DNA of 21,739 nt from a virus. The stretch spans positions 1-21,739 of the IMG/VR virus record IMGVR_UViG_3300008113_000834. One strand, given 5' to 3'. The translations under genes were made by a program, and so were the position numbers. Of this stretch, positions 6,673-21,705 are shown one piece after another (position 1 is the first letter of the stretch; each line of letters begins with the position of its first letter). Below the pieces are notes generated by a model. The model had not been told where the DNA came from. It saw only the letters and a list, made by a program, of their open reading frames with translations, and made no database searches.

Positions 6673-8615
6673 TGTCATCCGCTAATTCAGGCCTACAAAT
6701 CACTAACCTTGACTTTGGTTCGATCAAATCAAGTTTAAAAACCTTTTTATCACAACAAGACACACTTCAAGATTACAATTTTGATGGCTCGGCGCTTTCT
6801 GTATTGGTGGATTTATTAGCATATAATACACAATACAATGCATACTATTTAAACATGGTAGCAAATGAAATGTTTTTGGACTCCGCTGTTCAGCGTGGTT
6901 CTGTAGTTTCACATGCGAAACTATTAAATTATGTGCCACAATCGGCAGTTGCACCAAAGGCTACAGTACAAATTACAGTAAATGGCGTAACAACATCAAC
7001 ACTCACACTTCCGAAATTCACACCTTTCATATCCGAAGCCATTGATAACGTAAACTATACATTCCTTACAACAGACGCATCAACAGTAAATGTAACGGCA
7101 AATACAGCAACCTTTAATGATATCATTATTTCACAGGGTATATCTTCATCATTCTCCTACACAACGGATTACATCGATTTAACACCAAGTAGCAAAGTAT
7201 ATTTTTTAGAAGAAGGAATGAACGGAAACTATAACATATATTTCGGTGATGGTTTATTAGGAAAATCACTTGTAAACGGAAACATAGTTAATTTAACATA
7301 TATCACAACATCAGGCACCTCAGCCTTTGGTGCAAACTCTTTCACAGTCATGTCGAACATTGGTGGTTTTTCAAACACCGTAGTAACATCAATCACATCA
7401 GCATCACTAGGTTCAGAAAAAGAATCAATTGAATCTATTAAATATACTGCACCAAAAGCATATGCGGCACAAGGTCGTGCAGTCACAAAAGAAGATTACA
7501 TATATCTCATTCAAAACAATTCTACGAATCTGCCAATAGATTCAGTTTCAGTCTGGGGCGGAGAGGAAAATGATCCACCAGTTTACGGTCAAATCTTTTG
7601 TGCTGTTAAACCATCAGGCGGTTATACATTAACTCCTACACAGAAACAAAAACTTATTACTGAAGTTATTAAACCAATCTCAGTTTTGACTGTTGTACCA
7701 AACATTGTTGATCCAGATTACACTTATGTAAAAATCAATACAAAAGTTCTTTATGACGTAAAGAAAACCACATTAACAAGCAATCAAATTCAAAATGATG
7801 TGGTGTCAGCAATTAATAACTTTACTTCTTCCACACTCAATACATTTAATTCGGTTTTCAAATTACCAGAATTGATTTCAAGTGTACAGGCAGCAAACCC
7901 AGCTATCATTACGAATGAATCAACAATACGACTACAGAAAAAATTCTATCCTACATTAAATGCTAGAGCAACATACATTCTTGATTTTGGTGTACCACTA
8001 AAGAGAAATTACTTTAATGCGGGTCTTTCTTCTTCACCTTCTTTTTCCAAAACAGACGTTACATCATTATCCAGCATAAGAACAGGTATATTTTTAGAAG
8101 AAGTTCCCACAACAACTGGTGGTATTGCAACCATTAACGTTATCAATCAAGGTTTTGGTTACACAAAAACACCTACAGTAACAATCACCGGTAACGGACA
8201 AAATGCAAGTGCATATGCAGTTCTTGTGGCTGGTCGTGTAAACAATATTGTGATAACCGATCCAGGATATAATTACACTGAAGCATTTGTCACGATCACA
8301 CCACAGGACGGCGATACATCAGGTGCATTAGCATATGCATCTCCTGTACTAGAAGGTTCAGAGGGTGTTATTAGATCGTATTATTATTTAAATAATGTTA
8401 AGACAATTTTCGATCCAAATGCTGGAACAATTAATTACCTTACTGGTAGAGTGACATTAATAGACTTTGCACCACTTGAAATTAATAATCCGCTAGGACA
8501 ATTTACTATTTCTGTTGTACCAGACTCAACAATTGTATCATCTACTTTTAATAAAATAATTGCAGTTGATGAATTTGATCCAGAAGCAACCACAGTAACT
8601 GTTAGTGTACAATAA
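6672..8615 (+). CDS. 6: Baseplate wedge protein gp6
   Basis: This 647-residue protein (T4 gp6 is 660) forms the inner ring of the baseplate, where gp6 dimers link the wedges; its core belongs to the gpJ/gp6 family. The N-terminal part matches T4 well: LQDYNFDGSALSVLVDLLAY (32-51) against T4 FLDYDFEGSRLNVLCDLLAY, then the SVVSHAKLLNYVPQSAVAPKA segment. NYNIYFGDGLLG, the AVTKEDYIYLIQ helix and the IFCAVKPSGGYTLTPTQKQK segment also correspond to T4. Residues about 483-562 form a Gly-Tyr/Pro-Thr-Val beta-module not present in T4 gp6. GAGGA precedes the ATG, which overlaps the gp25 stop; the stop overlaps the next gene by one base. Confidence 0.93.
   Translation: MSSANSGLQITNLDFGSIKSSLKTFLSQQDTLQDYNFDGSALSVLVDLLAYNTQYNAYYLNMVANEMFLDSAVQRGSVVSHAKLLNYVPQSAVAPKATVQITVNGVTTSTLTLPKFTPFISEAIDNVNYTFLTTDASTVNVTANTATFNDIIISQGISSSFSYTTDYIDLTPSSKVYFLEEGMNGNYNIYFGDGLLGKSLVNGNIVNLTYITTSGTSAFGANSFTVMSNIGGFSNTVVTSITSASLGSEKESIESIKYTAPKAYAAQGRAVTKEDYIYLIQNNSTNLPIDSVSVWGGEENDPPVYGQIFCAVKPSGGYTLTPTQKQKLITEVIKPISVLTVVPNIVDPDYTYVKINTKVLYDVKKTTLTSNQIQNDVVSAINNFTSSTLNTFNSVFKLPELISSVQAANPAIITNESTIRLQKKFYPTLNARATYILDFGVPLKRNYFNAGLSSSPSFSKTDVTSLSSIRTGIFLEEVPTTTGGIATINVINQGFGYTKTPTVTITGNGQNASAYAVLVAGRVNNIVITDPGYNYTEAFVTITPQDGDTSGALAYASPVLEGSEGVIRSYYYLNNVKTIFDPNAGTINYLTGRVTLIDFAPLEINNPLGQFTISVVPDSTIVSSTFNKIIAVDEFDPEATTVTVSVQ
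8118..8357 (+). repeat. GxGY/PTVTI beta-module in gp6
   Basis: Residues 483-562 of gp6 carry two half-repeats: ATINVINQGFGYTKTPTVTI and NNIVITDPGYNYTEAFVTIT, separated by a Gly/Ala-rich strand. The same pattern (strand, G-x-G-Y, x3-P-T-V-T-I, Gly-Asn/Ala loop, A-x-A-x-V, x-V-x-x-I-x-V) recurs in gp7, gp8 and the 551-aa protein. It reads as a short beta-sandwich or beta-solenoid unit. Confidence 0.7.
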
Positions 8616-11572
8616 TGACTACTGATTTCGCCAAAAAAACCTCGTTAAAAGTTCCTTATCAGCTACCTGAATTTATCAGGTCTGATGATAACTACCAAAC
8701 TTTTGTTGCATTCATACAAGCATATTATGAATGGATGGAACAGCAGAACATTGGTTCAAATAAAAGCGGTGTCATTTATGGTACACAAAACTTATTAAAC
8801 TATCAAGACCTGAATTTTGTTGAACCCGGAGAATCATTTAATAAGTTTATTGATTATTATATCAATCAATTTTTACCAAATTTTCCAGCAGATTGTCTTG
8901 CCGATAAGAGTAAACTGATTCGAGCGGCAAAGGAATTATACTCTAAAAAGGGTACACCTTCCTCATATCAATTCTTGTTCAGAGCATTGTATAATTCAGA
9001 TGCTGATATTTTCTTAACACGAGATGTTATTTTCAAAGCGTCTGATGGTAAATGGTACATCTCAAAAAGTTTACGTCTTGACACTAATGACGAGCAATGG
9101 CTGTCAACAAATAATTTTAGATTGTTCGGTGAGAGTTCAAAGTCTATTGCAACAATCGAAAGAGGTATTGCGGTTTCTAATAGAACAGAAATCTATATTG
9201 CAAACATTGAACGCTTGTTTATTTCAGGTGAAGATGTTGTCGTTGTAGATAATAACAATCAAATATTATATTTCAAAGATTCTAAGGTTGTACCACAAAG
9301 CACTGTTGGTGCAACTCCACTTCGTGCTAAGATTCTAGGTTCTATCTCAGCAGTCAACATCAATCCAACAAAACGTGGCCAACTTTATGTTGGAAGAAGT
9401 CAAACATACCTTGGCGATCCAGTTGTATTTTATGGTGGTCTAAACTCACCAACAGGTGCTGGCGCTTCTGCATATGTTTATGAGACAACATCGGGTTCTC
9501 TCCGTGATATTACCGTTGTTAATGGTTCATATGGTTATAGACCAGATCCGAACACATACATTAGAATAACTGGTGGAGGTGGTTCGGGTGCAATTGCAAA
9601 TGTGTCAACCGTTAATCCTGCCGGTGAAATTAATGTTGCTTTTATTCCACAAAATTATATGAGTTTGAGTTTATTTTCAGCCACGCAAATAGGTGCAAAT
9701 TCTTATCCATTTTTCCCAGCAAACACGGCAGCAAACTCGGTTTGTTCTCTAGCAAACGCATTCACTTTTGTTGGTTTTTCGACTTATCCAATATCATCAG
9801 TTGTACTCAATAACGGTGGTGGTGGGTATACAACACTACCAGCAGTAAAAGCATTTTCACTCTATGATACTACTGATCCCCAGCCAACAGAAAGTTTAAA
9901 ACTGAAGGGTTATCTCGGTTCATTGGGCATGTTGGGTCCAATCCAAATCGTTACACCCGGAACTGGATATGCTAACGGTGATATCATCAGCTTCAACAAT
10001 TCTGCTGGAGGTGTAGGTGCCCACGCAAACGTAACAGTAAATGCAACAGGTTCTATCATATCTACAGAATATACCTACTCCAATACAACAAACGGTGTAG
10101 CCACGTATCCGAAAAATGGCTTAGGATATAAACAAACCAGTTTACCAACACTCTCTGTCGCAACGTCAGGTGGTTCTGGTGCAGATTTGCGTGTCAACAC
10201 GATTCTAGGTGAAGGTGCTGAGTTGACACCAGTTTCTGATGAACGTGGTATTGGTGCTATCACATCTTTCATTATTGAAAATTTTGGTGAAGATTATATT
10301 GAGGCACCAAAGATTTCATTAAAGGTTCGTGACTTGGTAGTTACAAATGTGATACCTTCTAATATTATCAAAACAGGTGAATTAATTTATCAAGGTTCTA
10401 ATGTGAACACAGCAGTGTTCAAAGCGTATGTTGATTCTATTAGCTTATTGCAATCCGATCCAGTGCAAGCAAACTCAAAGTATGTTTTGAGAGTTTATAA
10501 TTATACATCAAATACAAAAACTAATTTACAATTGAATTCAACAGACCGTGATGCTGCGGCAAACATATACTTGGACTTGGACACAACATATAACACAATT
10601 AATAATGAGACTGGTGACTATATTTACCAATCGGGTATCAGAACATATGGTAATGGTGCTGCCGTAGCAACAGCTAAGTTCTTAAATGGTTTAATTATAG
10701 GTACTGGACAATATCTAAACGATGATGGCTTTGCAAGTTCAAATCAAATTCTTGAGAATGAAGACTACAATAACTTTACATATAACTTGATTGTACAGAA
10801 ATCTTTTGATGCATACAAAGACGTATTGTATAAGTTGTTACACCCATCAGGAACAAAAGTTATTCCAATCAATGCATTGAAGTCGGAGAAAACTATTGTT
10901 GTGGATGTGGAAACACACCAAGCAAACACACAAACACTTGGGCACTATACAGGGGATCCAGGTTCGAATGCATCAATGTATTCTACTTTTGAGAATGCAA
11001 GTAACAACATCATTAAGTTTGATGCTCTTGTTGGCGCAAACATTACGGAGATTGCACTACCAGGATCTCTGATAAGTTTGAACCAGAATAATGGTCCAAA
11101 TGTTTACTCAGAAATTATATCTGTTAATTACACAAGTAACACCGCAGTTATTCGTGATAACGTGTTTATGTCTTTTGCAAACGTTGCTACAGCAAACGTA
11201 ACAACGTCCAACAATAGAATAAATATACTGTCTACGACTGGTGAATATGATGTAATCAACAACGGAGAGTATAGCAATACAGCAAACGAGATACGTGATA
11301 TCATTTTTGCTGGAGATAGAATCAGAGTTGTAAGTGGATCAGATACTTTCCATGGTACAGTAAGTTGGATTAGCTATTCGAATAACGTAATTGCTGCTAA
11401 CACAACTATACCGTTCTCATCCAATTCAGCAAACGTTTCAATTGGAAGAACCATAGCAACATCAAATGTACAGTTCTTTAATTCTCTGGGTACCGTGTTC
11501 TATCCAGAACTGGTGACACAAGATGGTCTGAACCTTATAACCCAAGACAACAAAGAAATTATTCTAGGATAA
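8615..11572 (+). CDS. 7: Baseplate wedge protein, gp7-like core with large beta-rich insertion
   Basis: This 985-residue protein occupies the gp7 position after gp6. Residues 17-127 (LPEFIRSDDNYQTFVAFIQA, then YYEWMEQQN, ending in SKKGTPSSYQFLFRALYN at 110-127) match the late part of T4 gp7 (AFCEAYIQYL ... STKGIEASYKFLFKVLYN). YKDVLYKLLHPSG (734-746) matches T4 KSDVIRFVHPVG. In T4 these two blocks lie about 80 residues apart near the C-terminus. Here about 600 residues lie between them, including Gly-Tyr beta-modules (about 280-575). The T4 N-terminal domains are missing. A further beta-rich, Asn/Ala-rich C-terminal tail (about 765-985) ends in LVTQDGLNLITQDNKEI. In T4, gp7 clamps the wedge core and links it to gp8 and gp10. 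The start overlaps the gp6 stop. Confidence 0.75.
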   Translation: MTTDFAKKTSLKVPYQLPEFIRSDDNYQTFVAFIQAYYEWMEQQNIGSNKSGVIYGTQNLLNYQDLNFVEPGESFNKFIDYYINQFLPNFPADCLADKSKLIRAAKELYSKKGTPSSYQFLFRALYNSDADIFLTRDVIFKASDGKWYISKSLRLDTNDEQWLSTNNFRLFGESSKSIATIERGIAVSNRTEIYIANIERLFISGEDVVVVDNNNQILYFKDSKVVPQSTVGATPLRAKILGSISAVNINPTKRGQLYVGRSQTYLGDPVVFYGGLNSPTGAGASAYVYETTSGSLRDITVVNGSYGYRPDPNTYIRITGGGGSGAIANVSTVNPAGEINVAFIPQNYMSLSLFSATQIGANSYPFFPANTAANSVCSLANAFTFVGFSTYPISSVVLNNGGGGYTTLPAVKAFSLYDTTDPQPTESLKLKGYLGSLGMLGPIQIVTPGTGYANGDIISFNNSAGGVGAHANVTVNATGSIISTEYTYSNTTNGVATYPKNGLGYKQTSLPTLSVATSGGSGADLRVNTILGEGAELTPVSDERGIGAITSFIIENFGEDYIEAPKISLKVRDLVVTNVIPSNIIKTGELIYQGSNVNTAVFKAYVDSISLLQSDPVQANSKYVLRVYNYTSNTKTNLQLNSTDRDAAANIYLDLDTTYNTINNETGDYIYQSGIRTYGNGAAVATAKFLNGLIIGTGQYLNDDGFASSNQILENEDYNNFTYNLIVQKSFDAYKDVLYKLLHPSGTKVIPINALKSEKTIVVDVETHQANTQTLGHYTGDPGSNASMYSTFENASNNIIKFDALVGANITEIALPGSLISLNQNNGPNVYSEIISVNYTSNTAVIRDNVFMSFANVATANVTTSNNRINILSTTGEYDVINNGEYSNTANEIRDIIFAGDRIRVVSGSDTFHGTVSWISYSNNVIAANTTIPFSSNSANVSIGRTIATSNVQFFNSLGTVFYPELVTQDGLNLITQDNKEIILG
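9454..10335 (+). repeat. Tandem GxGY beta-modules in gp7-like protein
   Basis: About five degenerate copies are visible by eye in residues 280-574: RDITVVNGSYGYRPDPNTYI, SSVVLNNGGGGYTTLPAV, GPIQIVTPGTGYANGDII, GLGYKQTSLPTLSVATSGG, and TSFIIENFGEDYIEAPKISL. Each has a hydrophobic strand, a Gly-rich turn with Tyr, then a Pro-containing strand. Boundaries are approximate. The copies are diverged at DNA level, so this is an old protein repeat rather than a recent DNA duplication. Confidence 0.65.
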
Positions 11573-11575
11573 AAA

Positions 11576-13156
11576 ATGGCAACAGTAAAAATAACAGACT
11601 TACCTTCGATCACGACAATCAATGCCAATACAGCCAACACCGTGTTGGTTGGTGTTGATATACCAACCAACATTACGGGTAAGATTACACTTACAACACT
11701 TGCGGCAGGTCTTTACTCAAACAATAACTTGGTTGTGGGTAATAATTTCACAGTTTTACCTAACGTTGTTGGTCAGTTTACAGGTAACTCTGCCACATAC
11801 ATTCAGGTTAACATAGAAAATCTGAATTCAACAGGTTCAGGTGATTATGTTGCAACGGCTGACGATGGTACGGACACCGACCATTATATCGATATGGGTA
11901 TAAATGGTTCAACTTATTCCGATCCAACATACTCAGCACTCAAAGCACATGACGGCTATTTGTATGTTGCATCATCGGGTGCGGGTAAAGGTAACTTAAC
12001 AATTGGTTCAACAAACTCAACGGGTAGAGTTAACTTTGCGGTGGGTGGTTTAGAGACTGCTAACATTGTAGGTTACGTAGACTCATCTGGTATCTGGTCG
12101 CCTGCTATCAACTCAGTTGTAACAGCAAATGCAACTTCTGCTAACTCGGTAATCAATACAAGAATTTCCGCTAACGTTGCAACCCTCCGTGGTGAAATAA
12201 CCGCTAATGCAACCTCTGCCAACTCGGTTATTGATACAAGAATTACTGCTAATATCTCCACAGCAAACGTATTTACACAAGCGGCATTCGACAAAGCAAA
12301 CTCTGCGATTGCAAATACGAATGGTGTGTTTACAGCAGGAGATTTTTATATTTCTGGTGATGGTTTCGTTAACGGTACATTCACACTGTCTAACTCTACG
12401 TTTGGTGCAACCGAATCGGCAATGACCATCAAAGCTACTGCAACAGTACAAACACCATCCCAATCCGGAACAATGTTACATGTTTCAGGTAAAGCTGACA
12501 CACCCTCAAGAGTTATCATTGATTCTTTCAGCACAACCGGTTCTGCCTATGGTATTATTGCAGGTAGAACAGCACGTGGTACTGTAACTTCACCAACAGC
12601 AACACAAAACAATGACATTCTACTTCGTATGGCAGGCAATGGTTGGGGCACAACGGGTTTTGCACCACTTGGTGTTGCTCGTATTGATGTTGTTGCAACA
12701 GAAAACTACAGCGATACGAACCGTGGTTCAAAAATTGTTTTCTATAATGTTCCAAATGGATCAAACGTAGTCAATGAAATTGCATCATTCAATGCAGAAA
12801 CTGTTACATTTGATGGTGTAGTAAATCCAGCAAAAGGATTCATTTACACACCAAGAATTTATACTGGTGCTCAGACAGCCATTACAATTGACTTTGCAAC
12901 AGACTCAATGATTAGAGCAACATATAGTTCAACACTCACATTGTCTTTCTCAAACTACACAAATGGTAAAGTTGTTGAGGTGTGGTTAACAAACACGGCA
13001 GGCACTGGTCAGACAGTAAACTTGGGTGTTTTAGCAAACAATTCAACGACAGGTTCAACAACACTTTCTGTGGCTTCACTGCGATCAGCAAAGCTACAAT
13101 ACTTTAGTGTTGATGGTGATTTGGCAAACACTTTCTGTGCAATTACATACGCATAA
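11576..13156 (+). CDS. Fibre-like structural protein (526 aa)
   Basis: This gene lies between gp7 and gp8, where T4 has none. Residues 83-160 (SGDYVATADDGTDTDHYIDM, then INGSTYSDPTY, HDGYLYVAS, GNLTIGS) form a beta domain I associate with tail-fibre or appendage proteins of aquatic phages. Two copies of a 19-residue element in a 26-residue period follow (183-227), then AAFDKANSA, a motif typical of helical shaft repeats. The C-terminal 110 residues (TPRIYTGAQTAITIDFATDS, then YSSTLTLSFSN, GKVVEVWLTNT, and LQYFSVDGDLANTF) resemble a recurrent C-terminal domain of phage fibre and tail proteins. No S74 peptidase or enzyme motif is seen. TAGGA precedes the ATG. A trimeric appendage anchored on the wedge is the best guess. 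Confidence 0.7.
   Translation: MATVKITDLPSITTINANTANTVLVGVDIPTNITGKITLTTLAAGLYSNNNLVVGNNFTVLPNVVGQFTGNSATYIQVNIENLNSTGSGDYVATADDGTDTDHYIDMGINGSTYSDPTYSALKAHDGYLYVASSGAGKGNLTIGSTNSTGRVNFAVGGLETANIVGYVDSSGIWSPAINSVVTANATSANSVINTRISANVATLRGEITANATSANSVIDTRITANISTANVFTQAAFDKANSAIANTNGVFTAGDFYISGDGFVNGTFTLSNSTFGATESAMTIKATATVQTPSQSGTMLHVSGKADTPSRVIIDSFSTTGSAYGIIAGRTARGTVTSPTATQNNDILLRMAGNGWGTTGFAPLGVARIDVVATENYSDTNRGSKIVFYNVPNGSNVVNEIASFNAETVTFDGVVNPAKGFIYTPRIYTGAQTAITIDFATDSMIRATYSSTLTLSFSNYTNGKVVEVWLTNTAGTGQTVNLGVLANNSTTGSTTLSVASLRSAKLQYFSVDGDLANTFCAITYA
12122..12256 (+). repeat. 26-codon tandem repeat in fibre-like gene
   Basis: Copy 1 (12122-12178) encodes TANATSANSVINTRISANV and copy 2 (12200-12256) encodes TANATSANSVIDTRITANI, offset by 78 bases. 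They differ mostly at synonymous or conservative positions. The Ala/Asn/Ser-rich pattern suggests a helical shaft segment. A diverged continuation may lie in the AFDKANSAIAN region just downstream. Confidence 0.8.
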
Positions 13157-13168
13157 TAGGACTTTATA

Positions 13169-14545
13169 ATGTCAGCAAACACAGGTATTTTAACAAACGG
13201 TAACGGATCATACCAAACATCAACGGTATATTATTCACCGTCTTCCACTATTGCATCAACAGGTGAGGTTCTCGGAACTCTTTATTGCTTTCTTTCACGG
13301 GTGAAACCATGGGAAACAGATACTGTACCTCCAGCACCGACACAAGACCTAAAGTACATAAAGGATACTTTTAAGAACATGTTTGTTGCAAAAAAAATTA
13401 ATTCGAGTGACATGTCTCCGGTGATCGAACGTATAAATTGGACTTCAGGTGAAGTGTATGATTATTACAGAGATGATGTTAACATGTTTGCACTCGACAC
13501 TAATGGAACGATTTTGAAAAGGTTCTATGTTAAGAACCGTTTCGATCAAGTATTTAAATGCCTATGGAATAATAATGGTGGTGTAGTGAGCACAGAACCA
13601 TCATTTGAACCCGGAACTTTCAATGCAAACCAAATCTTCCAGGGTGCAGACGATTATAAATGGAAATATATGTACACTATTACTTCAGGTAATAAACTGA
13701 AGTTTATGGATGATGCATGGATGCCGGTGCCAGTCAGTACAACACCACCAAATCCTGTTTATACTTTTGCTGGTCGTGGAAGCATTGATGTAATTAATGT
13801 AACTGATGGTGGGACTGGTTATGACCCGGCAAATGCAGTAATTACCATATCTGTTACAGGTGACGGTGCATATGCAACGGCAAATGCTACTGTAGTTTCT
13901 GGCTCAATTACTGATATCGTTGTAGCAAACACCGGTTCAAATTATTCATATGCAAATGTATCAATTGTTTCAGCACTGGGTTCGGGTGCAACTGCGATTG
14001 CTCCAACATCACCAATTGGTGGCCATGGATCTAGCATTGTAACTGAGTTGGGCACTCGTCATATTATGTTAACTGCCAGATTTAACAGAGATGAGAGTGG
14101 AAAATTACCAACCGATATAGATTTTAGGCAACTTGGTGTGATGGTAAATCCATTCGCATATTTTGGTACTGCCATCGGCCGTGCTAATGGAGATGTATAC
14201 AAAACAACCACAGACTTTGTTGTTTCAGGTGGGTTTGGTGCATACACACCAGATGAAACGGTATATCAATCAGTGAATGGATTGTTATCTTCATCTACAT
14301 TTACTGCAACAGTTTTAAGTTTCGATTCAACAACCAATACGGTAAAGTTGATAAATACACAAGGAACCGCAAACAATAGTGCCTTAATATATGGCGCTAC
14401 ATCAGGTACTTCAAGAGTGGTAGTACAACAACAATTACCAGATTTCATACCATTTTCAGGATATTTGACCTACTTAGAAAATAGGGAACCAGTGCAAAGA
14501 AACTCTGATGGTTCTGAAATTTTTAAATTGGTTTTAGGATACTAA
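13169..14545 (+). CDS. 8: Baseplate wedge protein gp8
   Basis: This 458-residue protein is a longer form of T4 gp8 (334), which forms a dimer in the wedge and binds gp7 and gp10. Matching segments are YCFLSRVKPWETD (39-51; T4 FITFGRSEPWSSN), DDYKWKYMYTI (161-171; T4 DGYVWEYLFEI), FRQLGVMVNPF (319-329; T4 FRQISIITNPL) and the C-terminal LENREPVQRNSDGSEIFKLV (436-455; T4 MENRPPIIMAMDQTEEINIL). The added length is mainly a Gly-Tyr beta-module at residues 206-289 and extra strands at about 355-420. TAGGA lies before the start, 12 bases after the fibre-like gene. Confidence 0.9.
   Translation: MSANTGILTNGNGSYQTSTVYYSPSSTIASTGEVLGTLYCFLSRVKPWETDTVPPAPTQDLKYIKDTFKNMFVAKKINSSDMSPVIERINWTSGEVYDYYRDDVNMFALDTNGTILKRFYVKNRFDQVFKCLWNNNGGVVSTEPSFEPGTFNANQIFQGADDYKWKYMYTITSGNKLKFMDDAWMPVPVSTTPPNPVYTFAGRGSIDVINVTDGGTGYDPANAVITISVTGDGAYATANATVVSGSITDIVVANTGSNYSYANVSIVSALGSGATAIAPTSPIGGHGSSIVTELGTRHIMLTARFNRDESGKLPTDIDFRQLGVMVNPFAYFGTAIGRANGDVYKTTTDFVVSGGFGAYTPDETVYQSVNGLLSSSTFTATVLSFDSTTNTVKLINTQGTANNSALIYGATSGTSRVVVQQQLPDFIPFSGYLTYLENREPVQRNSDGSEIFKLVLGY
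13784..14034 (+). repeat. GxGY beta-module in gp8
   Basis: Residues 206-289 of gp8 read IDVINVTDGGTGYDPANAVI, then VTGDGAYATANATVVSGSIT, then DIVVANTGSNYSYANVSIV, followed by a Gly/Ala-rich loop. This is the same two-half-repeat architecture as in gp6, and it is absent from T4 gp8. It falls between the conserved DDYKWKYMYTI and FRQLGVMVNPF blocks, so it looks like a domain insertion. Confidence 0.7.
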
Positions 14546-14554
14546 AGGATAAAA

Positions 14555-17500
14555 ATGCTTAACTTCAATGTCGATCCATACTTTGACGATTTCGACCCGA
14601 GCAAGAACTTTCATCGGGTTTTATTTAAACCCGGTCGTGCCGTTCAAGCTAGAGAACTGACACAATCACAGACGATCCTACAAAATCAAATTACAAATTT
14701 TGCAGACCACTTTTTTAAACAGAATACACCCATTAAAGGTGGAAATGTTACAATTGATTTAAATGTAAATTCACTAAAATTAAATTCAACATATAATGAT
14801 AATGATATTGTTGCATCGGATTTTTTAAATCAAATTATTACAGATGATACAGGCTTGGTTGTCGCAAAAGTTATTGCAACGGAAGAAGCAACTTCTACTG
14901 AAGCACCGACACTTATTCTAACCTATTTTTCTGGTGGTCATTTTGCTAACAGTGCTAATATTTTTTCCACAAGTACCACATCAGTTGCACAAACAGTTAG
15001 TGCAGATGCCGATGGCCTTGCTTCTGTAGCATCAGTTTCGAACGGTATATTTTATATTGTAAGTGGATATAACTATTCGACAACACAAAATGATGACGGA
15101 ACATATAATAGATATTCTATTGGTAATTTCGTTGAAGTTTTACCTCAAACTATTATTCTAAACAAGTATAGTAATATACCAAATAATAGAATTGGTTTGG
15201 AAGTTTCGGAATATATCAGTGATTACGTAACCGATCCATCACTTTTAGATCCCGCTGTTGGTGCAACAAACTACCAAGCTCCGGGTGCAGATAGATATAC
15301 TGTATCGCTGACACTGACTTCTAAGGCACTGGAGTCAACAGGTGTTAATGACCAAAACTTTATTGAACTGGTTCGGGTAGACAATGGTATAATAGTTAAA
15401 CAAGTTTCAAGCACTGCGTACTCCGAAATTGATAAATATTTTGCAAAGCGTACATATGAAACTAACGGTGATTATATTGTAAAACCATTTACAATAACAC
15501 CTAGCGCAAACACAGATACAAATGGAGATGATAAGTATTTAATTACTATTGGCCCAGGTACAGCATATGTGCAAGGTTACCGTGTTGAAAACCAATCACA
15601 AATAACTATCAATGCAAACCGTTCAAGAACCACTGCAAACGTAAATAATAATATTTTGACTCCAGCATATGGAAATTATTTCTATGTGAACACTTTGCTT
15701 GGTGCAAACGGTCAAATTTTTGATGCAACCTCTATACAATCCGTGGATTTTCACGTTGGTGGTGTGGCTAATGCTAACGTGATTAGTCAAAACACATACA
15801 ATTCCACAGTTGCGGCTAGTGGCTTTATACGAAGCATTTCTTATAGTTCAAGTGGAACAGACTCGAACACACAGTCTTACATTTATAAGGCTTATGTTTC
15901 AGATTTGTCAACAAAAGTTTTATCAAGTAATGTTTCTTCCGCAACATCAAATACCGTAACACTATTCGATAATACAGACACGTTCAGTCGAAAAGATAAC
16001 GTATACAATGGTGTAGTTCTTTCTATTGATTCTGGAACAGGCATCGGACAAACAAGAACGATTACTGGTTATGTTGGCTCAACAAAAGTTGCTACTCTAG
16101 ATGTACCATTTAATATTATTCCAACATCATCATCTGTAGTATCTTTAAAATTTGCTGTAAAAGATATTGAATGTATGATTCGTGCGGGTACAGGCACAAG
16201 TTCCAACTTATCAATTTTTGGTACGGCAGCAATTGATAATCAAAGTAAAGTGAATCAGATAAGTACAGGAAATACAAATCTAATAGATGCAGATGAGCCA
16301 CAACTCATCTTCCCATTGGGTTTGAATTATGTTTCTTCTGTGTCGGATACTTCTTATACATCATTGAAGATTCACAGAGGTATAACATCAACGTCTTCTG
16401 GTGGTGGTTCAGTTATCACATTAACAACAGGAACATCTGTTGTTAATTACATTCGTTCAGGTGCGGCCGAAGCGGCAGATTCAATCAAACAAAACTTTTT
16501 AGTTATTGTTCGAGATCCATTATCAAGCGGTCTAACGAAAGGTAGTATCGTTGACTTCACGAATACTCCAACTAGAACGGTTGTGGTAAGCTCAGATAAA
16601 CAGACCGCAACATTGACTGCTACAGATTTGGGTCCTTTCACGGCCGACATTTATGTAAAAGTTTCAATAGTCGATGCAGATAATACAAGTATTGTACTTA
16701 AACAAAAAACCCTTGTTACAGCAAACACAACAGCTTTGGGTATCTCAGGTGCAACAGGCACTGTAGGAAACACATTGATTGATTTGACAAAAGGTCAGAT
16801 TTATATAAATTCAAACACAGCCGTGAATGGTTATGGCACTGCACAAAATTTATATGTAGCTGACGTTAAGAAAATTGTAAAAATTATTGACACGAAAGGT
16901 GCAACACCTACATTGTCAATGTTAACAAATACAATTTATGATGTTACAAGTAACTATACATTTAATAATGGTCAAAAAGATAGTTATTATGGACATGCCT
17001 CGATTTCATTGAAAGCTGGTGCTCCGAAACCAACAAGACTTTGGATTTTATTCGATCACTACCAAACATCTGGTGGAGATGGATATTATAGCAAAGAGTC
17101 TTATATTAATGAGGGCTTTGCTGATATACCTTCTCACACTACCGCAGACGGTACAACATACAATTTGAGGGATTGTATAGATTTCCGACCAATTGTTAAG
17201 AATGCACAAGCTGCTTTTGAATACCGTTATAGCGTTACACCAAACTCAAGCAACTGGTATGGTTCATTGTTGCCGCAAGACTTATCAAATTTCACAAATG
17301 ATTATTCATATTATCTTGCAAGAACCGACCTATTGTTATTGACTAGAGAGTCCACATTTTCTATAATTGAGGGTACACCGGCAATAAATGCAGTTGAACC
17401 TACCACACCAACGTCCGGTTTAGTTCTGGCTAAAATGTATCTCGACCCATATACTGCATATGTTCCAGGTGAAGTGGCCGGCGTCATACCGAATCTATCA

Positions 17501-19621
17501 TTGAAACCGGTTCCACATAAAAACTGGCAAATGAAAGACATTTCTAATATTCAAGATAGATTAAATAATCTGGAATATTACACATCTCTAAATTTGTTGG
17601 AACAATCAGCAACAAACCTACAAATTCAAGACAGTGAAGGATTGAATAGATTTAAAAATGGTATTCTCGTTGACGATTTTTCATCGTTCTCAGTAGCAGA
17701 TACATTTAATAATGACTATAAAGCATCTATTGATACAACAAGAAACATACTTGCACCAGCAATTTTTGTTACCAATTATCAATTGCAAAACAGTGTAACA
17801 CTCGATGCTATCAATTATGGAAACTTATCTGATGCCGCACAAACAAGTATAGGTATCAAACTAAACAAGTATGGTAAGTCCAATATTATTACATTGCCTT
17901 TTGCTGAAGAAGCCATGATTGTTCAAAAATTGGCAAGTAGAGATGTGGATGTAAACGCCTTTTCTGTTAGAAACACAGAAGGATATATGAATTTAACTCC
18001 ACCGATGGACAACTGGGTGGATACTGAAGTGGAACCATCTTTGTTATTTGTTGATCCGACATTGAGAACATTTAAAGCCACAACAACCGGTGAAACAAAT
18101 CTGTTGAATGTTGGAAATTGGCAATATATTCCAGGATCATACTATAATTACAACAACACAACATCCAGCACTTCAGGTTATGTTACCAATTATACAACAA
18201 CAAACTATACGGGTATAGATTACACCAGAAAATTGTATTATGGTAATTACACTGAAGCGTCTTCACAAAAAGGTAACTATGTAACCAACGTGAACTTGCA
18301 ACCGTATATTCGTTCACAACAAATACAATTTAGTGCAACAAATTTATTGGTTAATACTACATTAAATGCCTTCTTTGATAACAAACGTGTAACTCGTTTA
18401 ATTAGAAAAGCAAACATTGTTGAATTGACAAACGTTTCAGGTACCTTTAAAGTTGGTGATGCTATTGGTTACATATCTAGTGGCTCTTTCGTCTATACAG
18501 GTAAAGTTTTAGATGTATATAAAAATGGAACAAACACTCGACTATATGTGATCGATGATAATGCTGCAACAGGGTATGGTCCAGGTACAGTTGTCGCAGC
18601 ATCATTTAATTCGACAGGATCATCATATACTTCATTGGCCACAGGAACACTATCAACACAAACACACTATGCGGGAATACTACCTTCAACAGGAAGTTCA
18701 ACATCAAGTGTGACACTGAATGTGAAAGCGTCTTCAACTAATAGCTATTATGTTGGTATGCCATTCTATATTGTTGGTGGAAGCACAACGGGTATAACTT
18801 CAATCGGTAAAGGCCTTGGTGCATATATCGGTACATACAACGGTTCAACAAAAGTTGCTACACTTGTCGATAAAGATGGAAATCCATTTACAATATCACA
18901 TACTGCCGGTGATGTTTATTCTATAGGCAACATACAATCGAATGAAATTGGTAATGTATCTGGTGTGTTCTATGTGTATGGTGGTTACTTCCAAACAGGT
19001 GAAAGAATCTTCAGATTGGATAATAGGATTATAACACAAACTGCAACAGAGTTCATTTATTCAAATGGCACTGAAACAACATATAGTGAAGCAAAATTTG
19101 TTGCACAGGGTTTAACACAGAAAACTCAAGAGTTGGAATTCTCATCATCATTTGATTCCGCATCGAAGGTAACTTATGTCAATGATGCATTGCAGGTTCG
19201 AAACCAATACATATCAAACCAATGGGTTGTAGATAATACTCCTCAAAGTAGTGGTTGCTGTGTGGTTGCAACAGCACTTCAGGATACTGGAGTATGGACA
19301 ACAGAACGTAAAGATATGTTGGTTGAATGGTGTGAGAAATATTTACACGATAAAATGCTTGGTGAATGTTTCCGCCGTGGCTATCAAGTTGTTGCATCAA
19401 AAGCTGGTGTGCCGTTGCTTAAGAGCCAAAATCCTATTGCAAAAGCTGTGTCTAAATACTATGTCTGGTCTTGGAACAACGGAACTAATATGGTAATGGG
19501 TAGGAAATTTAATCCACTATCAATACCAAATAGCGCATTCTGGATTACAGTATTCATGGCAGTTGGTGCAGTTGTGACCAAAAACTTTGCAGATAAAACT
19601 TGGAAAAAATTGTATAATTAA
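14555..19621 (+). CDS. Large DUF4815-type baseplate/tail protein with Cys-rich C-terminal module (1688 aa)
   Basis: The N-terminus (YFDDFDPSKNFHRVLFKPGR, then AVQARELTQSQTILQNQI, residues 9-46) is the hallmark of DUF4815, a family of large tail proteins in aquatic T4-like phages. Other family blocks are YTFNNGQKDSYYGHASISLK with GAPKPTRLWILFDHY and YNLRDCIDFRP (about 800-880), and YIRSQQIQFSATNLLVNTTL with AFFDNKRVTRLIR (about 1251-1286). Function is inferred as a peripheral baseplate or short-fibre component, taking the place where T4 has gp9-gp12. Residues 1568-1688 are a distinct module: GCCVVATAL, an amphipathic helix with WCEKYL, then CFRRGYQVVASKAGVPLLKS, YYVWSWNNG, and a hydrophobic segment FWITVFMAVGAVV (about 1662-1674). 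AAAGGA precedes the start, nine bases after gp8. Confidence 0.85.
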   Translation: MLNFNVDPYFDDFDPSKNFHRVLFKPGRAVQARELTQSQTILQNQITNFADHFFKQNTPIKGGNVTIDLNVNSLKLNSTYNDNDIVASDFLNQIITDDTGLVVAKVIATEEATSTEAPTLILTYFSGGHFANSANIFSTSTTSVAQTVSADADGLASVASVSNGIFYIVSGYNYSTTQNDDGTYNRYSIGNFVEVLPQTIILNKYSNIPNNRIGLEVSEYISDYVTDPSLLDPAVGATNYQAPGADRYTVSLTLTSKALESTGVNDQNFIELVRVDNGIIVKQVSSTAYSEIDKYFAKRTYETNGDYIVKPFTITPSANTDTNGDDKYLITIGPGTAYVQGYRVENQSQITINANRSRTTANVNNNILTPAYGNYFYVNTLLGANGQIFDATSIQSVDFHVGGVANANVISQNTYNSTVAASGFIRSISYSSSGTDSNTQSYIYKAYVSDLSTKVLSSNVSSATSNTVTLFDNTDTFSRKDNVYNGVVLSIDSGTGIGQTRTITGYVGSTKVATLDVPFNIIPTSSSVVSLKFAVKDIECMIRAGTGTSSNLSIFGTAAIDNQSKVNQISTGNTNLIDADEPQLIFPLGLNYVSSVSDTSYTSLKIHRGITSTSSGGGSVITLTTGTSVVNYIRSGAAEAADSIKQNFLVIVRDPLSSGLTKGSIVDFTNTPTRTVVVSSDKQTATLTATDLGPFTADIYVKVSIVDADNTSIVLKQKTLVTANTTALGISGATGTVGNTLIDLTKGQIYINSNTAVNGYGTAQNLYVADVKKIVKIIDTKGATPTLSMLTNTIYDVTSNYTFNNGQKDSYYGHASISLKAGAPKPTRLWILFDHYQTSGGDGYYSKESYINEGFADIPSHTTADGTTYNLRDCIDFRPIVKNAQAAFEYRYSVTPNSSNWYGSLLPQDLSNFTNDYSYYLARTDLLLLTRESTFSIIEGTPAINAVEPTTPTSGLVLAKMYLDPYTAYVPGEVAGVIPNLSLKPVPHKNWQMKDISNIQDRLNNLEYYTSLNLLEQSATNLQIQDSEGLNRFKNGILVDDFSSFSVADTFNNDYKASIDTTRNILAPAIFVTNYQLQNSVTLDAINYGNLSDAAQTSIGIKLNKYGKSNIITLPFAEEAMIVQKLASRDVDVNAFSVRNTEGYMNLTPPMDNWVDTEVEPSLLFVDPTLRTFKATTTGETNLLNVGNWQYIPGSYYNYNNTTSSTSGYVTNYTTTNYTGIDYTRKLYYGNYTEASSQKGNYVTNVNLQPYIRSQQIQFSATNLLVNTTLNAFFDNKRVTRLIRKANIVELTNVSGTFKVGDAIGYISSGSFVYTGKVLDVYKNGTNTRLYVIDDNAATGYGPGTVVAASFNSTGSSYTSLATGTLSTQTHYAGILPSTGSSTSSVTLNVKASSTNSYYVGMPFYIVGGSTTGITSIGKGLGAYIGTYNGSTKVATLVDKDGNPFTISHTAGDVYSIGNIQSNEIGNVSGVFYVYGGYFQTGERIFRLDNRIITQTATEFIYSNGTETTYSEAKFVAQGLTQKTQELEFSSSFDSASKVTYVNDALQVRNQYISNQWVVDNTPQSSGCCVVATALQDTGVWTTERKDMLVEWCEKYLHDKMLGECFRRGYQVVASKAGVPLLKSQNPIAKAVSKYYVWSWNNGTNMVMGRKFNPLSIPNSAFWITVFMAVGAVVTKNFADKTWKKLYN

Positions 19622-19623
19622 TT

Positions 19624-20040
19624 ATGGGAATTTCAGTAGCTGATTACTTTGCACAAAAAGAAGCATGTTCAGATTGCTTAGAACATGGTGACGAAGAACA
19701 TTGCGTCACAACATTACTAAGCCGTGCGGAAAATTGCTTCTTTTATAATGCAACACATATGAATATAGGTGATTATTCTGAAGAAGACCGAGAAATTGTT
19801 AGAAATATGAGAAACAATTTATCAGAAGAAGAACTTGTTGAGTATTATGTTCGAGGTGAAAATATCATTGAACATATGAAATTGTTTGAGAAACCACATT
19901 ATGAACAATATGCAATTATTACTAGAATTGATTTCAATCACTTACAAAAGATTGTAAGAGAAGTCAAAAACAATAACAAAGAAAAAGTTTTTAGCATGGT
20001 AACATACATGCTAGACGAAATAGAAAAAGAATATTCATAA
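19624..20040 (+). CDS. Small acidic protein with four spaced cysteines (138 aa), unknown
   Basis: I do not recognise this protein. The N-terminal 40 residues have Cys15, Cys18, Cys27 and Cys38 (C-x2-C-x8-C-x10-C) with His21 and His26 between, which could bind a metal. The rest is a strongly charged helical stretch (EEDREIVRNMRNNLSEEELV, then VREVKNNNKEKVF and DEIEKEYS), quite unlike the Thr/Asn/Gly-rich structural proteins around it. It begins two bases after the stop of the 1688-aa gene without a visible Shine-Dalgarno, so its translation is probably coupled. Its composition and position suggest an assembly chaperone or a partner of one of the flanking proteins rather than a virion shell component. 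This is inference. Confidence 0.8.
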   Translation: MGISVADYFAQKEACSDCLEHGDEEHCVTTLLSRAENCFFYNATHMNIGDYSEEDREIVRNMRNNLSEEELVEYYVRGENIIEHMKLFEKPHYEQYAIITRIDFNHLQKIVREVKNNNKEKVFSMVTYMLDEIEKEYS

Positions 20041-20049
20041 GGAATATAA

Positions 20050-21705
20050 ATGGCCATTACCGTACTTGATCCTGTTGCACAGACATTCATTATTGATAAG
20101 GATTCTTTCCCAGAGGGAGCATTCTTGAGTTCAATTCGTCTATTTTTTAGAAGCAAACCCTCAAACAATGTTCCAATTAAGTTGAGCATTGTACCCACGG
20201 TCAATGGTTTTCCCTCAGGTAATCCGTTAGACTACTCACAGGTTACATTGTATCCGAATGATGTAAAGGTATCTGAAAGTCCACAGTATGTTGACTCTAC
20301 GACATATACAAATTTCACATTCCCTGTACCAGTTTTTATTAGGCCTGATGCGTTGTATGCAATGATTATTCAGAGCAATGCTTCTGGGTATAAACTATGG
20401 ACGGCAGCACAGAATGATATACCATTGGCATCTTCGGTAAAAGAACTTCCAACAGATGCAACACCAACATCTTTGACAAAGATATCAAAGTCACCTTATG
20501 TTGGTTCATTCTTTGAATCGCAGAACGGTATTACTTATACTGCGGATCAAACAAAAGATTTGATGTTTGTTATTAATAGATGTAGTTTTAGCACAACAGC
20601 AAATCCAAGTTTAGATTTTGTTGTTCCAGCTGGACTACAACAAAGAAAATATATAGAACAAACTTTCACAAAGCAAACAGCAAATGTTACGTATGATGAG
20701 TTGAACATTTCAACCACACATTTTGTACCAACAAGTACAAACATTAATTATTCATATATTTCAACTTTAAATTCTGATGGTTCATCTACTGGAGCACTTA
20801 ATGTTACTCCAGGTGAATTAGGCACTCCATTATCACAGAACATTAAATTGAATGATAACAGAGGTTTAAGAGTTCTTGTTGCAAATTCAAATACATCATT
20901 CATTTTGAATGCTACACTGCAAACAAGTGATAATAGAATGTCACCAATACTCTCTGATGACGGTCTTTCACTTTACACCGTGAAATATAATATCAACAAC
21001 TTAGGTTTATCAAACACCGATTTCTCAATAATCAGTGGTGGAACAGGATATTTGGGTGGCGCCAGTGGCGATCTTGTAGGTAATGTTACAATATCTGCAC
21101 CAAATGAAGTTGGAGGTGAGCAAGCATATGTTACAGCTAATGTAACTTCCGGTAACATCACTTCAATATACGTAACAACTGAAGGTTCTGGTTATAGCAA
21201 GACACCAACAATTACAATCTCTGCGGCAAACACAACTTCTGCACAACTTGCGGTTACTGGAGAAACATCAACAAGCGGTGGAAATGCAAAAGCAAGATAC
21301 CTGACTTATCCTGTAACGCTTGCACAAAATAGTGACTCAGGTGACCTCCGTGTTTTCCTTACTTCTTACAGACCAACAAATACAAACATATATGTTTATT
21401 ATAAATTGTTGTCAAGAGAAGATACACAAACGTTCGAACAGAGTGATTGGCAATTAATGACCATCACTAATAATTCTACCAAATATTCCAGAAATGAAAC
21501 GGAATTATATGAATTTGAATTTGCTCCTGGAATTAATGGAGTAGAAGATAATTTTGTTTCTTATATAAGTAAAGCATCTGGCTATACATATAACTATTTT
21601 TACAAATATGCTATCAAAGTTATAATGACCACGACAGATTCAACGATTTCACCTTATTTAACCGACATAAGAGTTCTTGCATTACCACCAGGTAGCAGTC
21701 TATGA
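20050..21705 (+). CDS. DPVAQTF-type tail protein (551 aa), separate counterpart of DUF4815 C-terminal part
   Basis: Residues 5-40 (VLDPVAQTFIIDKDSFPEGA and FLSSIRLFFRSK) begin a beta-sandwich-like domain, continuing with PIKLSIVPTVNGFPSGNPL and the FTFPVPVFIRPDALYAMIIQ strand pair. SFFESQNGITYTADQTKDLM follows. In cyanophage-type proteins, as I recall them, this domain is often the C-terminal part of the large DUF4815 polypeptide. A Gly-Tyr module occupies about residues 324-410. The end has TSYRPTNTNIYVYYKLLSRE and FYKYAIKVIMTTTDS, also typical of that family. The gene has a good AAGGA site nine bases after the 138-aa gene and overlaps the next gene by ATGA. A peripheral baseplate role is inferred. 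Confidence 0.75.
   Translation: MAITVLDPVAQTFIIDKDSFPEGAFLSSIRLFFRSKPSNNVPIKLSIVPTVNGFPSGNPLDYSQVTLYPNDVKVSESPQYVDSTTYTNFTFPVPVFIRPDALYAMIIQSNASGYKLWTAAQNDIPLASSVKELPTDATPTSLTKISKSPYVGSFFESQNGITYTADQTKDLMFVINRCSFSTTANPSLDFVVPAGLQQRKYIEQTFTKQTANVTYDELNISTTHFVPTSTNINYSYISTLNSDGSSTGALNVTPGELGTPLSQNIKLNDNRGLRVLVANSNTSFILNATLQTSDNRMSPILSDDGLSLYTVKYNINNLGLSNTDFSIISGGTGYLGGASGDLVGNVTISAPNEVGGEQAYVTANVTSGNITSIYVTTEGSGYSKTPTITISAANTTSAQLAVTGETSTSGGNAKARYLTYPVTLAQNSDSGDLRVFLTSYRPTNTNIYVYYKLLSREDTQTFEQSDWQLMTITNNSTKYSRNETELYEFEFAPGINGVEDNFVSYISKASGYTYNYFYKYAIKVIMTTTDSTISPYLTDIRVLALPPGSSL
21019..21280 (+). repeat. GxGY beta-module in 551-aa protein
   Basis: Residues 324-410 read DFSIISGGTGYLGGASGDLV, then NVTISAPNEVGGEQAYVTAN, then ITSIYVTTEGSGYSKTPTIT, followed by an Ala/Thr-rich stretch. 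The second half is nearly the consensus of the unit seen in gp6 (GFGYTKTPTVTI against GSGYSKTPTITI). Confidence 0.7.

Follow-up and report, generated by a model that had tools for sequence, protein, structure and literature searches.

The window analysed here is an entire IMG/VR fragment of 21739 bases from an uncultured T4-like phage, and our subject is a run of three adjacent + strand open reading frames (ORFs) in it that encode two parts of a DUF4815 baseplate protein (VriC/VrlC family) and, between them, a small protein. ORF 1 (14555-19621) encodes 1688 amino acids (aa). Its 1536 N-terminal residues (14555..19162) are common to single-chain relatives and are followed by a linker that forms the breakpoint region (residues 1537-1567, 19163..19255) and by a C-terminal domain delimited in profile alignments, the Cys module (residues 1568-1688, 19256..19618; CCVVATAL...W..GY..W..G..W). 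ORF 2 (19624-20040) encodes a 138-aa protein, called here the partner; it starts 2 nucleotides (nt) past the preceding stop and has no clear ribosome-binding site of its own. After a further gap of 9 nt, ORF 3 (20050-21705) encodes a 551-aa protein that corresponds to the C-terminal part of the single-chain form, with six residues preceding its DPVAQTF motif. An earlier interpretation made from the letters alone, referred to here as the sequence-only reading, had described this succession, from a DUF4815 gene with a Cys module at its end through a 138-aa gene to a DPVAQTF gene in its own right, and the adjacent ORFs bear it out.

The first and third genes match, one after the other, a single PHROG profile of 2056 positions. 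Positions 5-1387 of phrog_358 align with the first gene (E value 8.9e-234) and the alignment resumes at position 1421 in the third (1e-75), so the two genes encode successive parts of one known polypeptide family. The first gene also lies above the cut-off for Pfam PF16075 (1.9e-57; 195 bits, cut-off 30). Its DUF4815 part is 44-56% identical to relatives, and the DPVAQTF protein is 50-60% identical to the C-termini of fused relatives. In the solved ORF65 of PDB entry 9euf, a single chain of 1152 aa, residues 3-608 correspond to the DUF4815 part (2.2e-28) and residues 791-957 to the DPVAQTF part (profile match, 3.4e-20), in the order seen in the window. One chain was likewise found in every annotated isolate checked, comprising the cyanophages S-RIM2, P-RSM4 and ACG-2014f as well as Rhizobium N34, Sinorhizobium phiM9 and phiM12, Ochrobactrum OC, E. 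coli PhaxI, Vibrio D510 and Bacillus SBSphiJ7. The window thus shares with the known DUF4815/VriC-VrlC proteins (PF16075, PHROG 358, 9euf ORF65) the same domains in the same order, located likewise between gp8 and the tail-fibre region, but carries them on two chains separated by a cassette.

The exact breakpoint was located by alignment to L008, a single-chain homologue (L numbers denote the loci compared). Residues 2-1536 of the window DUF4815 protein correspond to L008 residues 3-1505; in the third protein, residues 4-546 correspond to L008 residues 1525-2080, which leaves L008 with a 19-residue linker. The cassette, consisting of the Cys module and the 138-aa gene, occupies the position of this short linker, which is G-rich in L087 and L045. 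Among the 78 distinct sequences in a tree of the DPVAQTF domain, 25, all close relatives, are insert-free single chains of ~2080-2127 aa, and 8 more single chains include a PA14-like insert. A further 28 have their split at a different site and 13 show the window layout; the remainder are a three-piece variant, L006 (1/78), and fused outgroups (3/78). These 25 relatives, together with the cultured outgroups checked, confirm the earlier claim that both parts lie on one polypeptide in related aquatic phages, and neither the DUF4815 nor the DPVAQTF domain was found duplicated among the relatives compared. The proposal that the two halves were kept in order and tightly coupled holds as well, given the short gaps and the consecutive phrog_358 matches.

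The window layout is found in 16 other viral contigs, two of which end inside the 138-aa gene, and is therefore neither chance nor an assembly artefact. These contigs form one clade with support of 100/99 in the DUF4815-part tree, with L006 inside it. The 138-aa gene follows the Cys module in all 17 contigs of this layout. Ratios of nonsynonymous to synonymous substitution rates (dN/dS) of 0.01-0.21 for the 138-aa gene and 0.03-0.09 for the Cys module show that both are under strong purifying selection.

The sequence-only reading had taken the cassette to be an insertion between two formerly joined parts. The linker position agrees with this, but the cassette is not a one-off insert: judged by sequence comparison, C-terminal modules are exchanged at the linker, which acts as a slot, and the window cassette is one filling among several. 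The slot may hold a Cys module, a 'KIIC' module, a Hint domain, a peptidase-S74 domain or a short tail. In a sister clade, termed split-B, the break comes some 120-170 residues sooner, past a PA14-like domain and a Pro/Gly linker, and the upstream protein ends in one of these same fillings. Module labels change often on the trees, and for the Cys module at least six changes are forced by the starred branches of the DUF4815 tree. L060 (Cys) and L065 (short tail) have flanks 88% and 90% identical with unrelated sequence between them; L044 (KIIC, split) and the single-chain L050 have flanks 76% and 78% identical, with 48 nt between the flanks in L050; and comparison of L045 with L044 reveals a further swap with clean DNA boundaries. 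L006, nested in the window-layout clade, carries a Hint domain in place of the Cys module and has no 138-aa gene. Hint (Pfam Intein_splicing, 3.3e-8) also occupies the slot in L056 and L082, and Peptidase_S74 (6.9e-5) does so in L016.

Two variants of the split deserve separate description. In L006, positions 8486-9982 encode a 498-aa fragment of the DUF4815 chain ending in the Hint domain (Cys1, TTH, terminal HN, then Gln), and a neighbouring piece has a PA14-like end at a third breakpoint, at about residue 1165. L050 (4679-11677) and L057 (4742-11677) encode single chains with a PA14-like insert and no module among split relatives, L050 having the Pro/Gly linker in addition; both are probably re-fusions.

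The Cys module is present on DUF4815 proteins and on unrelated proteins, as in L104, L113 and L115, phages in which the DUF4815 search gave no match. It had no match in Pfam, NCBIfam, PDB or, by tblastn, cultured phages, and none was confirmed in bacterial and archaeal genomes. Neither an S74 domain in the window module nor, in Pfam or NCBIfam, an intein/Hint signature in the window was found. A supposed likeness to the 'CFI-box' C-terminal domain was borne out by no match or paper, and weak matches to phrog_1507 and phrog_2614 were followed up and then dropped. Profile-profile comparison of the Cys and KIIC modules gave a probability of 7% and an E value of 0.005 over 52 columns, which does not establish homology. 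Near its end the Cys module has a hydrophobic segment with a Kyte-Doolittle value of 1.58 in the window and up to 2.4 in relatives. Across the Cys and KIIC modules the terminal hydrophobic segments score 1.2-2.4, one KIIC variant excepted, while other segments average 0.84.

The partner also recurs beyond the DUF4815 genes. Searched by tblastn, cultured phages yielded no 138-aa protein; P0001, the homologue in the cultured Synechococcus phage SynMITS9220M01, was detected by a profile to which P0001 had not contributed (E value 1.3e-10). In that phage QJT70041, Gly/Pro-rich and KIIC-ended, is followed with a 1-nt overlap by QJT70042, which encodes a homologue of the 138-aa protein. This pair resembles that of the window in its homologous small protein and its tight junction of module gene and partner; it differs in that the carrier is a Gly/Pro-rich protein rather than DUF4815 and the module is KIIC rather than Cys. 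Clear members of the 138-aa family likewise stand after KIIC modules in L166-L168, L171, L174-L176, L180 and L231, and homologues follow module-bearing genes of unrelated phages at offsets of -1 to +1 nt. In L113 and L115 a small gene (98 and 96 aa) overlaps the Cys-module gene by 1 nt; comparison with the 138-aa family (E values 0.02 and 5.3, reverse 0.0087) is suggestive only of homology. A scan for KIIC modules returned 80 loci, and 39 distinct genes carry the module on a protein that is not DUF4815. Under a simple longest-ORF gene model, a coupled gene no longer than 150 aa came next, at offsets of -44 to +6 nt, in 31 of these 39, compared with 13 of the 132 genes used as controls (Fisher p 1e-16). 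These small genes fall into several families. A match of the 138-aa gene to NCBIfam SLATT_6 (E value 0.039, cut-off 100 bits) was judged to be chance.

The KIIC loci show some variety in this arrangement. In L153-L232 the module stands on many Gly-rich proteins of ~300-640 aa, with followers of apparently different families, typified by 'DHLTHFFNT' and 'LTQNIL.L.K.DQ'. In L166-L168 (5414-6301) and L174-L175 (5414-6292) the homologue of the post-KIIC partner lies within a larger protein of about 290 aa, and in L171 (2755-5489) two successive overlapping genes, each KIIC-ended, precede a single partner of the 138-aa family.

The separate DPVAQTF gene remarked on by the sequence-only reading is indeed present in the window, but other phages have one too: at least three further lineages show it, in most cases with a different module and no 138-aa gene. 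KIIC-ended DUF4815 genes are followed by a separate DPVAQTF-type gene in L169, L172, L184, L185, L197, L199 and L228, a 61-aa gene of another family lying between the two in L197, and L170 is in three pieces. A tree of 40 rows requires four changes to account for the splits at the DPVAQTF junction, and their grouping in one clade is rejected (approximately unbiased test, p=0.0002). As these trees place it, then, the split at this junction arose several times in aquatic phages.

We read the window as the fission of a baseplate-protein gene accompanied by a Cys module and its coupled 138-aa partner, a reading that, taken as a whole, we hold with somewhat better than even confidence. Its first component, fission with a two-gene cassette, appears highly probable. 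In the ancestral state the DUF4815 and DPVAQTF parts would have formed one chain of ~2080 residues. In the window clade a two-gene unit, made up of the C-terminal Cys module and the translationally coupled partner, would then have taken the place of the linker and turned the chain into two, the upstream one ending in the module and the downstream one beginning at DPVAQTF with its place in the operon kept. DUF4815/VrlC proteins are part of two-layered baseplates (PMC7029224) and resemble the baseplate proteins of phi812 and A511 (PMC11721090). From family membership and gene order after the gp8-like gene, the window proteins would be located in the baseplate, and because order and coupling are kept, both halves presumably still assemble into the same two-layered structure.

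The mobile module and its co-translated partner probably constitute an assembly or chaperone pair. The slot also takes S74 and Hint, modules of classes known for chaperoning or self-processing, and we therefore take the Cys module as a putative domain for assembly or attachment that closes a fibre-like end. The 138-aa protein could be the chaperone matched to it, with coupled translation supplying the two in a 1:1 ratio and the chaperone shielding the module, and possibly its hydrophobic segment, until assembly; this second component of the reading is tentative, its chances falling a little short of even, and is drawn by analogy with cyanophage Pam3, where gp24 is a tail fibre and gp25, encoded downstream, its assembly chaperone (PMC9608196). 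A small gene directly downstream of the gene for the fibre-like end and coupled to it is what the window has, with its 2-nt gap, and in both systems a small downstream partner would serve the end of a Gly-rich, fibre-like protein. In the window, by contrast, the coupling is to a C-terminal module that is separate and mobile, and the function of the partner is putative. Peptidase S74, the endosialidase-type intramolecular chaperone, is also a C-terminal assembly module and sits in the same slot in L016, but the Cys module belongs to another sequence family. Hint and intein-like domains are, again, Cys-initiated C-terminal modules after a Gly linker and fill the slot in three loci; the window module lacks their signature. 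No paper on fission of a DUF4815 baseplate protein was found among open-licence papers.

Three observations weigh against this reading of fission and chaperoning. Counts of changes on the trees do not separate fission from fusion at each single event, so that direction is not proven in every case; the hydrophobic segment would also suit a membrane-active domain; and split-B phages with the Cys module lack the partner, which implies that the module can work without it and that the pair is not obligate. The first of these bears on the possibility that the single-chain relatives arose by later fusion from genes that were ancestrally separate in this part of the tree. Split and fused states are indeed interleaved, with six changes on the careful tree; L050 and L057, nested in split relatives, look re-fused, and the fused L002 and L004 are placed among split lineages. 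On its outgroup side the rooted tree nevertheless shows the fused state (Bacillus, Ackermannviridae, Vibrio and Rhizobium phages, and cyanophages), the solved ORF65 is one chain, and the split forms differ in modules and breakpoints, unlike the descendants of one inherited split. Fission is favoured as the direction of change because the outgroup side is fused, and ancestral separation seems to us unlikely.

The other two observations reappear in explanations that assign the cassette a different role. The Cys module might be a domain that is delivered at infection and acts on membranes or on the host, with the 138-aa protein as antidote for the producing cell; most Cys and KIIC modules have the hydrophobic segment such a domain might use, and a tightly coupled small partner drawn from several families is what toxin-immunity pairs show. 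Many split-B phages, however, have the Cys module but no partner, the profile searches returned no match to a toxin family, and a slot that also holds Hint, S74 or nothing suits assembly better than an effector, which makes this an improbable alternative. That the 138-aa gene is an unrelated extra gene, caught by chance in the gap, would fit its absence beside the split-B Cys modules and the frequency of small extra genes in phage structural operons. Its presence in all 17 contigs of the layout, the homologues trailing module-bearing genes in unrelated phages and the strong enrichment of coupled small genes after KIIC modules speak against such an accident, and we give the idea little credence. 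Post-translational rejoining of the two chains by a split intein or other trans-splicing draws on L006, where a Hint domain (Cys1, TxxH, terminal HN) at the same breakpoint makes the chemistry conceivable; yet L006 itself has Gln after HN instead of Cys, Ser or Thr, and rejoining of this kind is scarcely credible. For the window a split intein was rejected: there is no intein match, and the six residues before DPVAQTF are too few for a C-terminal intein half.

Around the three genes the window offers a few further features. A next gene overlaps the DPVAQTF stop by ATGA, seen in the sequence after 21690, and runs off the contig (21702..21739, + strand); by gene order in relatives, its orthologues are a 70-87 aa coiled-coil-like gene, succeeded by a long tail-fibre-like gene. 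A GGTGY...GSGY beta repeat with matches to further structural families (PHROG 460, 719) occurs in the products of both the gp8-like gene (13169-14545) and the DPVAQTF gene (20050-21705). Between the 985-aa and gp8-like genes, a 526-aa gene (11576-13156) had no convincing family match, its only PHROG match being to a regulator (E value 0.005).

Among related phages, then, a core baseplate protein has been cut, re-joined and re-capped at a single linker. The split gene stands at the head of the host-recognition gene cluster, which has been described as hypervariable (PMC7029224). Close pairs that differ in the module alone provide a natural experiment on its role, and annotators gain a means of identifying the two halves along with the small gene between them. 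The recurring pair of module and partner suggests that many uncultured aquatic phages possess an assembly or attachment system not yet characterised. We give an even chance to the broader proposition that aquatic phages share an undescribed mobile two-gene system, in which an exchangeable Cys or KIIC module and its co-translated cognate partner would have been grafted onto many fibre-like virion proteins, repeatedly splitting DUF4815.
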